Assembly (NCBI GenBank): GCA_003054665.1
Contig: QAYY01000013.1
Coordinates: forward strand, 124,001 to 188,000
Length of the DNA: 64,000 bases
Direction: 5' to 3'
Source: Opitutaceae bacterium EW11
GTDB taxonomy: Bacteria > Verrucomicrobiota > Verrucomicrobiia > Opitutales > Opitutaceae
Shown: positions 22,195 to 61,733 of the stretch, one piece after another
Layout: every line of letters starts with the position of its first letter
Numbering within the stretch: position 1 is the first letter of the stretch
The notes under the pieces: generated by a model
Told to the model about the DNA's origin: nothing
The model's database searches: none
What the model saw: only the letters and a program-made list of their open reading frames with translations
Made by a program: the position numbers and the translations under genes

Positions 22195-22234
22195 GATCAC
22201 GGTCATCGCGCCGCCTGCCGTGCGGCGCAATGAC

Positions 22235-22370
22235 CTAATGAAGAAGGAGGAATGCGGAATGGAGAATTGAGAGGGGTGCGCGTCGGGACCGTCGACCCCG
22301 ACGTTCTGGTTGGTCGCGGGAACCCTCGCGCCTGTGCATTCGTCATTCGTCATCCTGCATTCTTCATTAG
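22235..22370. repeat. Palindromic GAATGC/GCATTC-type intergenic element
   Basis: CTAATGAAGAA (22235-22245) is exactly complementary to TTCTTCATTAG (22360-22370), and the interior of each arm is rich in GAATGC/GGAATG on the left and CATTCGTC/TGCATTC on the right. The ~136-base element fills most of the divergent gap between tsaB and tig. The same GAATGC/GCATTC vocabulary recurs in the elements at 60772-60846 and 60958-61032, suggesting one dispersed family. Confidence 0.6.
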
Positions 22371-22470
22371 CGGACGGCGCTGGCCGCCGCCCGCGCAATG
22401 CGGTGTTGACCGCGTGCGAGGGCGTTCCGTAAGTTGGCCAATTCCGAACCGAAAATCGCTCCTTTCTAAC

Positions 22471-27554: not shown

Positions 27555-28286
27555 ATGACCATTTATCCCGCCATCGATATCAAGGGCGGCCGGTGCGTGC
27601 GCCTCACGCAAGGCCGCGCCGACCAGGAAACCGTCTATTCCGACAACCCCGCCGAAGTAGCAGCTGAATTCAAAAAGGCAGGGGCGACCTGGGTGCACGT
27701 GGTCGATCTCGACGGCGCATTTTCCGGTGAATCGCAGAATCTCGGCGTCGTCCGAGCGATCGCTGCGCTAGGCCTGAAGGTCCAGCTGGGCGGAGGAATG
27801 CGCAACCGCCTCGCGGTCGAGCGCGCCCTCGGCATCGGCGCGACCCGCGTCGTCATCGGAACGCGCGCGGCTGAGAGCGAAGCGTTCGTCGCCGAGCTCG
27901 CCCACGTATTTGCAGATCGGATCGCAGTCGGCATCGACGCGAAGAATGGCCAGGTGGCGGTGAAGGGCTGGGTCAATACCACGAACCAGACCGCGCTGGC
28001 GCTTGCCCAGCGGATGGACGCGATTGGCGTCCGCACGCTGATCTACACCGACATCGGCACGGACGGCATGTTGACGGGCCCGAATCTTGCCGCCCAGGAA
28101 GCGATGCTGAAGGCCGTGAAATGCGGAGTGATCGCCTCCGGCGGCGTGTCGCAGCAGTCCGATGTCGATCGGTTGAACACGCTCGGCAAACGCTACTCGA
28201 ACCTCGATGGCGTCATCATCGGCAAGGCGATCTACGAGAAACGCGTCGATGTGGCTGAGGCGTTGAAGACGGCCGCGGCCGGATGA
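27555..28286 (+). CDS. hisA: Phosphoribosylformimino-5-aminoimidazole carboxamide ribotide isomerase
   Basis: HisA carries out the ProFAR to PRFAR Amadori rearrangement in histidine synthesis. From the ATG at 27555 it is a 243-residue (beta-alpha)8 barrel. Catalytic Asp8 is in MTIYPAIDIKGGRCVRL and the second acid, Asp128, in AVGIDAKNGQVAVKGW. Phosphate loops are QLGGGMR and ASGGV. It stands alone rather than in a his operon. Its stop codon lies inside the loop of a 10-bp hairpin. Confidence 0.95.
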   Translation: MTIYPAIDIKGGRCVRLTQGRADQETVYSDNPAEVAAEFKKAGATWVHVVDLDGAFSGESQNLGVVRAIAALGLKVQLGGGMRNRLAVERALGIGATRVVIGTRAAESEAFVAELAHVFADRIAVGIDAKNGQVAVKGWVNTTNQTALALAQRMDAIGVRTLIYTDIGTDGMLTGPNLAAQEAMLKAVKCGVIASGGVSQQSDVDRLNTLGKRYSNLDGVIIGKAIYEKRVDVAEALKTAAAG

Positions 28287-28296
28287 CCGGCCGCGG
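28273..28296 (+). terminator. Strong hairpin containing the hisA stop codon
   Basis: CCGCGGCCGG (28273-28282) pairs perfectly with CCGGCCGCGG (28287-28296) over the 4-base loop ATGA, which includes the hisA TGA. The stem is all G-C. There is no T run after it, so factor-independent termination is uncertain; it may instead protect the transcript's 3' end. Confidence 0.45.
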
Positions 28297-28300
28297 AGAA

Positions 28301-28321
28301 GTTGGAAGTTCGAAGTTGGGT
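28301..28321. repeat. Short GTTGGAA-type heptamer repeat
   Basis: Three consecutive heptamers, GTTGGAA, GTTCGAA and GTTGGGT, follow the hisA hairpin. They resemble the complement of the CCAACTA array at 827-857 and are probably a degenerate member of the same kind of simple repeat. Confidence 0.45.
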
Positions 28322-59618: not shown

Positions 59619-60206
59619 ATGAACCTGCCGAATATCATCACGCTGTCCCGCATCCCGATGATGTTCCTTATCGTCGGCCTGATGTACTGCCGCTTCACGG
59701 GCGCGGCCACGCTGGCGTTCGTGTTGTTCATCGTCACGGCCATCGGCGATTGGCTCGACGGCTATCTCGCGCGGAAGCGCGGCCAGATCTCCAATTTCGG
59801 CAAGTTCATGGACGCCCTGACCGACAAGGTTCTCGTGATCGGAATCATGGTCGCGCTGGTGGAGCAGCAGATGATCCAGCTGGTCTGGGTGCTGATCGTG
59901 CTCGTGCGCGAGTTCATGATCTCGGGAATGCGCATGATGGCGGCGAGCAAGGGTGTGGTCGTGGCCGCCGAGCGCGGCGGAAAACTGAAGACGGTGATCC
60001 AGCTGATCGCGATCGGCGTGCTTCTCTTCGTTCCGGCGGTGCGCACCGACGTCGCGCGGTGGACGGACATCGAATTCGACACCTACGCGGAATCGCTCCA
60101 GCACCTCGGTCTGGTGCTGTTCATCGTGGCGACCGCGTTGACCGTAAGCTCCGGCACCAGCTACGCGCTGAAGTACAGGCAGGTCTTCGGCGAGATCTCG
60201 AAATGA
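59619..60206 (+). CDS. pgsA: CDP-diacylglycerol--glycerol-3-phosphate 3-phosphatidyltransferase
   Basis: PgsA makes phosphatidylglycerol phosphate. The 195-residue protein has about five membrane helices and the CDP-alcohol phosphotransferase motif with Asp44, Asp47, Gly48, Ala51, Arg52, Gly61, Asp65 and Asp69 (GDWLDGYLAR, then GKFMDALTDK). The start MNLPNIITLSRIPM is the family N-terminus. It overlaps pgpA by ATGA, so the synthase and the phosphatase that acts on its product are translated together. Confidence 0.96.
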   Translation: MNLPNIITLSRIPMMFLIVGLMYCRFTGAATLAFVLFIVTAIGDWLDGYLARKRGQISNFGKFMDALTDKVLVIGIMVALVEQQMIQLVWVLIVLVREFMISGMRMMAASKGVVVAAERGGKLKTVIQLIAIGVLLFVPAVRTDVARWTDIEFDTYAESLQHLGLVLFIVATALTVSSGTSYALKYRQVFGEISK

Positions 60207-60745
60207 GCCTCGGCCATCCGATCTGGCCCCGCTTCCTCCCGTCGTCGGTGGTGCTGAACTGCGCGCGTCTCGGGCCGATCGGCCGCGCTCGCCACGCCCC
60301 GGGTACGTGGGGCTCGCTGGCCGGCTTGGTTTACCAGCTGGTCGTTTTTCACCCACTGGCGACGTCGCTGCGCGGGCAGGCGGTGCTGCTCGTCCTTGTG
60401 GCGATTGGACTCTGGTTTGCCGTTGCGATCTGCGCCGAGGCGGAGTTTCGGATCGGGCGGCGGGATCCGGGCGAGATCATCCTGGACGAATTTGTATCCA
60501 TGCCGCTGTGTTTTCTGGGTTGGCCGGCGATGCTCGTCGGACCCTGGCAACGCTGGCCGATCGTGGTGTTTGTCGCGGGCTTCGCGATATTCCGCCTGTT
60601 CGACATCACAAAGCTGCTCGGCATCAAAAAACTCCAGGACCTGCCTGGTGGGCTTGGCGTGGTGATGGACGACGTTGCCGCCGCGCTCCTGACCTGCGCC
60701 GTGATGCACGGGATTGCGGCGGGATTTAGGTATTACGCTGCCTGA
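60203..60745 (+). CDS. pgpA: Phosphatidylglycerophosphatase A
   Basis: It removes phosphate from phosphatidylglycerol phosphate. From the ATG at 60203 it is 180 residues, with the GxxPGTWGS motif (ARHAPGTWGSLAG), RRDPGEIILDEFVSMPLCF and the C-terminal LPGGLGVVMDDVAAALLT, all PgpA marks. Three to four membrane helices are predicted. It overlaps pgsA by 4 bases. The last 34 bases of the gene (from 60712) are duplicated downstream as part of a 186-base tandem repeat. Confidence 0.93.
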   Translation: MSLGHPIWPRFLPSSVVLNCARLGPIGRARHAPGTWGSLAGLVYQLVVFHPLATSLRGQAVLLVLVAIGLWFAVAICAEAEFRIGRRDPGEIILDEFVSMPLCFLGWPAMLVGPWQRWPIVVFVAGFAIFRLFDITKLLGIKKLQDLPGGLGVVMDDVAAALLTCAVMHGIAAGFRYYAA

Positions 60746-60771
60746 GTCGCTGGCCGCCTAAGGAAGAATGT

Positions 60772-60846
60772 AGAATGGTGAATGCAGAATGGGGCGGGAA
60801 GCCACCGGACCGAGGAGCCGGCTCCCGATTCTGCATTCTTCATTCT
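60772..60846. repeat. Palindromic GAATGC element, copy 1
   Basis: AGAATGGTGAATGCAGAAT (60772-60790) is the inverse of ATTCTGCATTCTTCATTCT (60828-60846) with two mismatches. The interior is G+C rich with GAGCCGGCTC, itself a palindrome. The element belongs to the same word family as 22235-22370. Confidence 0.85.
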
Positions 60847-60957
60847 TAATTCCGCATCAGGTTTTTGCTCTGTCAGCGGAGCAAAAAACCGCAGCGCGAT
60901 TGCGGCGGGATTTAGGTATTACGCTGCCTGAGTCGCTGGCCGCCTAAGGAAGAATGT

Positions 60958-61032
60958 AGAATGGTGAATGCAGAATGGGGCGGGAAGCCACCGGACCGAG
61001 GAGCCGGCTCCCGATTCTGCATTCTTCATTCT
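60958..61032. repeat. Palindromic GAATGC element, copy 2
   Basis: The same element as 60772-60846, base-identical, carried by the second unit of the tandem duplication (arms 60958-60976 and 61014-61032). Confidence 0.85.
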
Positions 61033-61042
61033 TAATTCCGCA

Positions 61043-61486
61043 TTAGGTTTTTGCTCCGGTCTGTCGGAGCAAAAACCGCATCGCGGCGTGATAGCCTTCG
61101 AAGCCGAGGCCGGTGATGACGCCGATGCAGGCGGGGGCGGTGAGGGACTGGTGACGAAACTCCTCCCGCTTGTAGATGTTCGAAATGTGAACCTCGACGG
61201 TCGGGAGGTGCGCGCCCATCAACGCGTCGCGGACGGCCACGCTCGTGTGGGTCAGCGCTCCCATGTTGATCACGAGCCCGTCGACCTTGGCGTCGGCCAA
61301 GCTGGCGATCTTGTCGATCAACGCGCCTTCGTGATTCGATTGGAAAAACTCCAGCTTCGCCACCTTCCCGAACTCCGCCCGGAGCTGGTTCTCCAAGTCG
61401 GCGAGGGTCTCGGATCCGTAGACTTCGGGCTCGCGTTTGCCGAGGCGATCGAGGTTCGGTCCGTTGAGGATGGCGATGGTCTTCAT
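61043..61486 (-). CDS. aroQ: Type II 3-dehydroquinate dehydratase
   Basis: AroQ makes 3-dehydroshikimate in the shikimate pathway. From the ATG at 61486 it is 147 residues (a TTG at 61492 is less likely). It begins MKTIAILNGPNLDRLGKREP, with the catalytic tyrosine in PEVYG (residue 23) and the histidine in VEVHISNIYKREEFRHQS (residue 99). NHEGALID and INMGALTHTSVA are conserved substrate contacts. The 3' end lies in the second unit of the 186-base duplication. It is not next to other aro genes. Confidence 0.95.
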   Translation of the reverse strand: MKTIAILNGPNLDRLGKREPEVYGSETLADLENQLRAEFGKVAKLEFFQSNHEGALIDKIASLADAKVDGLVINMGALTHTSVAVRDALMGAHLPTVEVHISNIYKREEFRHQSLTAPACIGVITGLGFEGYHAAMRFLLRQTGAKT

Positions 61487-61549
61487 GGGCAAGTGCGGCG
61501 GAAGCTAGCGGGAAAACCGGCCCCTGGGAAGGCGGGAGAGGGGAGGAAA

Positions 61550-61581
61550 GGGCTGAAGGACTGAAGGGCTGAACGGCTGAA
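61550..61581. repeat. Octanucleotide tandem repeat, [G/C]G[G/A]CTGAA
   Basis: Four consecutive octamers, GGGCTGAA, GGACTGAA, GGGCTGAA and CGGCTGAA, lie in the 247-base gap between aroQ and the NIF3 gene, behind a GGGAGGAAAG stretch. No reading frame uses them. The rest of the gap shows nothing recognisable. Confidence 0.75.
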
Positions 61582-61733
61582 GGAAGCGGAATTCGCTGCT
61601 CGGGGGGGACTGGCCATGGGCCGGTGTTTTCTAGCGGCTCGGGGGCGGGCCCGCATTCAGGCACGGCCCAAGGCCGGCGAATCGCGGCGAGCTTTGGCTG
61701 ACCAATTATCGCGACTATGGGGCCACCGTGCCG

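Follow-up and report, generated by a model that had tools for sequence, protein, structure and literature searches.

In the available portion of PMC3733652, REPs are described as forming head-head and tail-tail dimers, with variable spacers in the tail-tail dimers. The same portion reports that the dimers are reiterated in tandem together with flanking DNA, that in some species REPs are located inside target palindromes, and that Opitutus terrae is highly enriched in GTAG repeats. According to the accessible part of PMC2817692, the copy number of REPs is usually over 100 per genome.

Here we analyse a stretch of 64,000 nucleotides (the window) from the genome of Opitutaceae bacterium EW11, a 6.4-Mb draft in 45 contigs. 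The organism belongs to the same family as Opitutus terrae. The window contains two genes facing each other, named pgpA and aroQ in the original prediction, and the palindrome between them is one of about 25 dispersed elements in the genome.

Tandem duplication between pgpA and aroQ

The spacer between pgpA and aroQ contains a tandem duplication of 186 bases. TRF identified an array at 60712–61085 with a period of 186, 2.0 copies and a score of 697, and a repeat finder returned an ungapped repeat of 162 nucleotides with 99% identity at a spacing of 186. Copy 1 occupies positions 60712–60897 and copy 2 positions 60898–61083, with an exact run of 146 nucleotides (60712–60857 identical to 60898–61043). 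The two copies are adjacent and on the same strand, as in a tandem duplication. A chance origin of the repeat is excluded by its length. The copies differ at several places, and therefore they are not a single stretch printed twice. The duplication with its 146 identical bases, as predicted originally, is thus confirmed.

The unit contains the tip of pgpA, a palindromic element and the tip of aroQ, in this order. Copy 1 starts within the final codons of pgpA, and the end of copy 2 falls within those of aroQ, so that comparison of the ends of the open reading frames with the unit limits agrees with the predicted joining of the two gene tips through the palindromic element. Mismatches between the copies are confined to the final approximately 40 nucleotides of the unit, which correspond to the aroQ part. 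The duplication is a small rearrangement, ordinary in kind.

Ends of pgpA and aroQ

The open reading frame of pgpA (60203–60745, plus strand) terminates with the residues GFRYYAA and a stop codon ending at 60745, and its last ten codons and the stop open copy 1. The remnant of pgpA expected in copy 2, from the last codons to the stop, is present at 60898–60931 of the plus strand and is unchanged. Matches to pgpA were found in 50 of the 57 genomes searched, including that of EW11. The aroQ gene (61043–61492, minus strand) ends with RFLLRQTGAKT and a stop codon at 61043. The aroQ strand of copy 2 has the sequence CGGTTTTTGCTCCGACAGACCGGAGCAAAAACCTAA, which encodes RFLLRQTGAKT-stop, and that of copy 1 has CGGTTTTTTGCTCCGCTGACAGAGCAAAAACCTGA, which spells RFLLR-stop save for one extra T. 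The working gene in copy 2 thus has six extra residues, QTGAKT, followed by a TAA codon provided by the CTAATG of the element.

The C-terminus of AroQ was compared with those of homologues ending in R-F/Y-L-L/I in two sets of loci, which have some genomes in common. An aroQ scan kept 80 loci, 46 of which (L179–L224) were used for the first set; 11 of them lacked the motif and 13 had other endings, which left 22 for the count. All 22 have one to three residues after the motif, and one of them (L193) ends exactly with RFLLR-stop. The second set contained 29 loci, three without the motif and seven with other endings. Among the remaining 19, one to three residues follow the motif in 16, and the tails after LL in three relatives are longer, with 4, 6 and 19 residues. 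Tails of 16–22 residues are present in five of 13 more distant homologues with other endings. The AroQ of the window has seven residues after LL, and copy 1 would give one. The comparison suggests that copy 1 most likely keeps the older aroQ stop, which the working gene has lost. The original prediction attributed a decayed aroQ end to copy 1. This assignment should probably be reversed, since copy 1 has the native-like RFLLR-stop with one extra T and copy 2 appears to be the altered one. It is likely, though not certain, that the ancestral aroQ ended with RFLLR-stop, because longer AroQ tails occur and a tail of seven residues is not unheard of.

Parts and folding of the element

The element in copy 1 is preceded by a hairpin over the end of pgpA (60716–60757, plus strand), positioned directly before TAAGG. 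This hairpin was identified by DNA folding and needs G-T pairs; stem scoring found only five strict pairs in it. The first heptad arm (60757–60794, plus strand) consists of CCTAAGG and subsequent GAATGNN units. The second, inverted arm (60824–60861) starts with CCTGATG on the minus strand and borders on the hairpin of the aroQ remnant (60860–60890, minus strand), which carries the RFLLR-stop with the extra T. The corresponding arms of copy 2 are at 60943–60980 (plus strand) and 61010–61047 (minus strand), and the CTAATG of the latter supplies the stop codon of aroQ. The hairpin next to it (61046–61077, minus strand) has 13 base pairs and a loop of six. Its outer arm is formed by aroQ codons, which are conserved coding sequence, and its inner arm, adjoining TAATG, is an exact inverted copy of them.

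The folds of two 206-base stretches each beat all 200 shuffles, with z values of −4.7 and −5.8. The limits of the 186-base unit lie just outside the two flanking hairpins. Pairing between the two ends of the unit is seen in the fold of copy 2, and not in that of copy 1. An Rfam search of 60600–61200 produced one match, the 20.7 bits of which are below the gathering score of the family (90).

Comparison with relatives

Of 104 loci compared, 42 contained aroQ and pgpA facing each other; some were fetched twice, so that at most 33 are distinct, and all belong to genera other than that of the source. Gaps between the gene matches range from 37 to 1707 bases, and the longer ones contain another gene. 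None of the 42 spacers contains a direct repeat of at least 18 bases, and none contains GAATG heptads. These 42 loci thus lack the element as well as its second copy. The duplication event is therefore not common to these relatives. The best AroQ matches, in a list that may leave out records very near the window, belong to uncultured Opitutaceae, Opitutae or Verrucomicrobia bacteria, and the first twelve are 78–85% identical. A pgpA scan of contigs from named organisms found no relative.

A dispersed family of GAATGNN elements

The pattern GAATGNNGAATG occurs at 63 sites in the genome, which we counted as 25 clusters, and the reversed pattern used as a control gave none. The elements are built from one arm or two inverted arms of approximately five GAATGNN heptads, mostly starting with CTAATG. 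A longer pattern, GAATGNAGAATGNNGAAT, was found in 12 of the 95 genomes searched, including that of EW11, with a maximum of 39 sites in one genome (G006). Some elements are located between genes resembling nuoC and nuoD or nuoD and nuoE (names assigned by eye), and some are at contig ends, such as the start of C15 and the end of C20. Heptad elements directly follow a nuoD-like 3′ end, named by eye, at L095 and L173, which belong to two different genera. Elements also adjoin tRNA-Ser genes (L104 and L106, both found by a tRNA search) or tRNA-Ser-like 3′ ends (L100 and L109), in some cases at contig ends. The window contains a second element at 22201–22394, which comprises a hairpin (22201–22235), two heptad arms and another hairpin (22370–22394). 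It is located upstream of a gene that resembles, by eye, the one for trigger factor.

The heptad arrays are frequently bounded by hairpins. Stem scoring was applied to the 53 of 86 array ends that start with TAATG, TAAGG, TGATG or CAATG. A stem score of at least 7 was reached at 29 of the 53 ends, compared with 36 of 1590 random positions from the same loci; two of the other 33 ends also reach this score. Among 50 independent ends, the stem stops exactly at the array boundary in 27 cases and one base further in for two. The hairpins differ from site to site, except for those in the two copies of the window and at the ends beside tRNA-Ser. At aroQ, L095, L110, L147, L152 and L160, where the neighbouring frames were chosen by eye, the outer hairpin arm includes all or part of the stop or last codons of the neighbouring frame. 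According to a rough codon measure, 24 of the 50 array ends adjoin a gene end and 15 a gene start, and 11 are undecided.

One explanation for the paired arms was rejected. If the arms were inverted copies of each other, their free heptad positions should agree, but the matches number 15 of 48 within ten two-armed elements, compared with 109 of 424 for arms from different elements. As the free bases are uncorrelated, neither arm is a copy of the other. Miniature elements of the IS630 type insert at a CTAG target with duplication of the TA. The two-armed elements read C-TA...TA-G; however, the single-armed elements do not fit such an origin, and no matching filled and empty sites were found.

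A sister family with GAAGTTN heptads

A member of a sister family is located at 28273–28319 of the plus strand. It consists of a 24-base hairpin and the sequence A-GAAGTTG-GAAGTTC-GAAGTTG, so that the hairpin adjoins GAAGTTN heptads at a gene end. With one mismatch allowed, GAAGTTNGAAGTTNGAAGTT has 56 sites in the genome and none in the reversed orientation; without mismatches it was found in three of 57 genomes, including that of EW11. After the omission of 12 loci representing the same site as L287, 18 of 30 loci were used for counting array ends. A stem of at least 7 is located within eight bases before the array in 12 of 15 independent ends, compared with 23 of 600 control positions, and in the other three the hairpin, judged by eye, is slightly further out. 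Two families in one genome thus share an unusual build, in which a hairpin particular to the site is followed by heptads, with the arrays frequently paired in inverted orientation.

The whole window contains 13 strong hairpins (score of at least 9, loop of at most 12), and a strong hairpin is near the stop codon in seven of its 47 roughly predicted genes. The strong gene-end hairpins are followed by TTTTTT or TTTCT in two cases, by TAATG in two and by GAAGTT heptads in one. Other short repeats in the window include a perfect 7-base array at 827–857 (CCAACTA in 4.4 copies) and imperfect 8-base repeats (AAGGGCTG) at 61548–61583, just outside the start of aroQ.

Discussion

The GAATGNN elements resemble the REP dimers, or BIMEs, of the GTAG class, as these are presented in the available portion of PMC3733652, in being short dispersed palindromes with inverted pairs and variable spacers. 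As in those dimers, a short tag adjoins a hairpin; here the order is CATTAG-hairpin with the tag inside, similar to tail-to-tail dimers. The tandem reiteration with flanking DNA is a further likeness to what that portion describes. In contrast to REPs of the GTAG class, the tag of the elements is TTAG, mostly CATTAG on that strand, rather than GTAG. The body of the hairpin is not conserved within the family, about 25 loci are present instead of the usual more than 100 (accessible part of PMC2817692), and arrays of approximately five heptads are located inside the tag. REPs of this class are further marked by a RAYT gene with the repeat on its flanks; here, the transposase locus L092 is flanked by CCC-TAATG without heptads. 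Lacking a GTAG tag, a conserved hairpin body and a high copy number, the elements are REP-like and are not REP members. They also share features with the TAACTGA heptamers of marine Beggiatoaceae, described in the available text of PMC4679880 as direct 7-base repeats that occur in small numbers at intergenic sites throughout the genome. Unlike the GAATGNN elements, those heptamers have a fixed unit and are mostly oriented toward start codons, and the available text mentions neither inverted arms nor abutting hairpins.

We propose that slippage or template switching probably gave rise to the tandem duplication of a REP-like dimer and its flanks, and that RFLLR-stop was the end of the ancestral aroQ. 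An element with two inverted GAATGNN arrays, with CTAAGG and CTAATG outermost, would have been located between the facing pgpA and aroQ genes, with each of its ends abutting a hairpin that reached into the neighbouring gene. Slippage or template switching, aided by the folded element, would then have produced a tandem copy of the element along with its two hairpins and the tips of the two genes. Both genes remain whole because each outer copy retains one working tip. Copy 2 may subsequently have lost the aroQ stop through a small change in a hairpin loop, so that AroQ now ends with QTGAKT. In the simplest path, the ancestor would have contained both loop segments, of which copy 2 lost three bases and copy 1 five; alternatively, a single complex template switch in copy 2 is possible. 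Some observations speak against this reading. The clustering of the differences between the copies in the last approximately 40 bases is not expected from even decay. The duplication junction has about one base of microhomology, and homologous recombination is therefore unlikely. The two unit ends also share a 13-base similarity (11 of 13 positions, by eye), of which the junction made no use.

The best-supported mechanism, although an inferred one, is slippage or template switching across the folded element, and this explanation needs no function for the second copy. The suggestion that the palindrome promoted slippage is plausible: the unit limits just outside the hairpins and the strong fold are consistent with it, but tandem copies are rare at other elements. 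In a survey of 56 loci, two of which were pieces of the window and two of which (L141 and L143) gave no array, one of 55 other element loci (L100) has a tandem copy that includes an element arm, with copies 140 bases apart. The repeats at L160, also among the 55, are away from the element. Repeats of any kind were found in one of 52 other tiles of the window, and a raised rate of duplication at elements is therefore not supported. L100 is at a contig end and contains a stretch resembling, by eye, a 3′ fragment of tRNA-Ser; no whole tRNA was found there. The duplication at L100 is beside what appears by eye to be an ISL3-type transposase.

An unlikely alternative is that an HUH/Y1 transposase (RAYT or TIRYT) recognising the hairpin and CTAATG excised the dimer and reinserted it with its flanks, which would make the tandem copy a transposition product. 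The genome has two Y1_Tnp matches, and tandem groups of REP dimers have been described (available portion of PMC3733652). The Y1 gene of L092 lies inside a 29-base inverted repeat, GATGGGGTCAG[G/A]CCC-TAATGTCTGTG, with one mismatch between its ends and CCC directly before TAATG. The gene and the repeat, with GGGGTCAG and CCCTAATG, span positions 1383–2460 of that locus. The GGGGTCAG ends and the CCC-TAATG in the repeat resemble the TIR families of TIRYTs with their GGGGWSAS motif, as given in the same portion of PMC3733652, and the L092 transposase fits the TIRYT group; the CCC-TAATG motif is its only link to the elements. However, among 30 transposase loci from a longer list, L092 alone carries CTAATG in its inverted repeat, which could be due to chance. 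Neither GAATG nor GAAGTT heptads occur at any of the 30, and any 7-base periodicity in the tails that follow GGGGTCA is marginal (0.33 at lag 7 compared with 0.21–0.31 at other lags). The connection to a RAYT through the CTAATG ends of L092 is therefore a lead only.

It is distinctly improbable that the doubled spacer has been retained for the better insulation that two palindromes would give the facing genes, by stopping transcription or protecting mRNA 3′ ends. The genes face each other, the folds are strong, and a simple terminator scan of 60500–61300 identified four minus-strand sites, compared with 0.8 in shuffled sequences. However, the T's used by three of the four sites belong to the aroQ hairpin arm, and the remaining site is within pgpA. 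An intrinsic terminator has a GC-rich hairpin and a T-run, whereas the element hairpins are followed by TAATG; at two other gene ends of the window, TTTTTT or TTTCT comes after the hairpin. G-T pairs do not outnumber A-C pairs (three compared with six in 31 stems, a count with little power), which gives no indication of hairpins at the RNA level. Furthermore, 15 of 50 element ends are next to gene starts, and some elements sit between genes like nuoC/nuoD and nuoD/nuoE. An assembly artefact is very unlikely: the assembly is a draft and some elements are at contig ends, but the copies differ by several changes and are both inside a 596-kb contig. Two independent insertions of the same element, conceivable for a dispersed family, are contradicted by the gene tips that the copies share, as pgpA coding sequence and a central sequence absent from other loci both belong to the identical stretch, which makes this origin extremely improbable.

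The tandem reiteration of REP dimers with flanks is already known, and the hairpin-heptad build, to which the duplicated element belongs, is the more interesting part of the finding. The literature searched contained no description of this class, which is weak evidence of novelty, and no paper with any of the three literal heptad strings. We tentatively speculate, while regarding it as doubtful, that the elements represent an Opitutaceae repeat class with a family-specific heptad array and an outer hairpin newly formed from host sequence at each site, emplaced by fold-back synthesis on the target. In that case, the strand beside the array would repeat, in inverted form, the final bases of the adjacent gene. 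We know of no small bacterial repeat that inserts by fold-back synthesis. Should the target prove to be the template for the hairpin during insertion, this would be a new route by which small repeats enter DNA.
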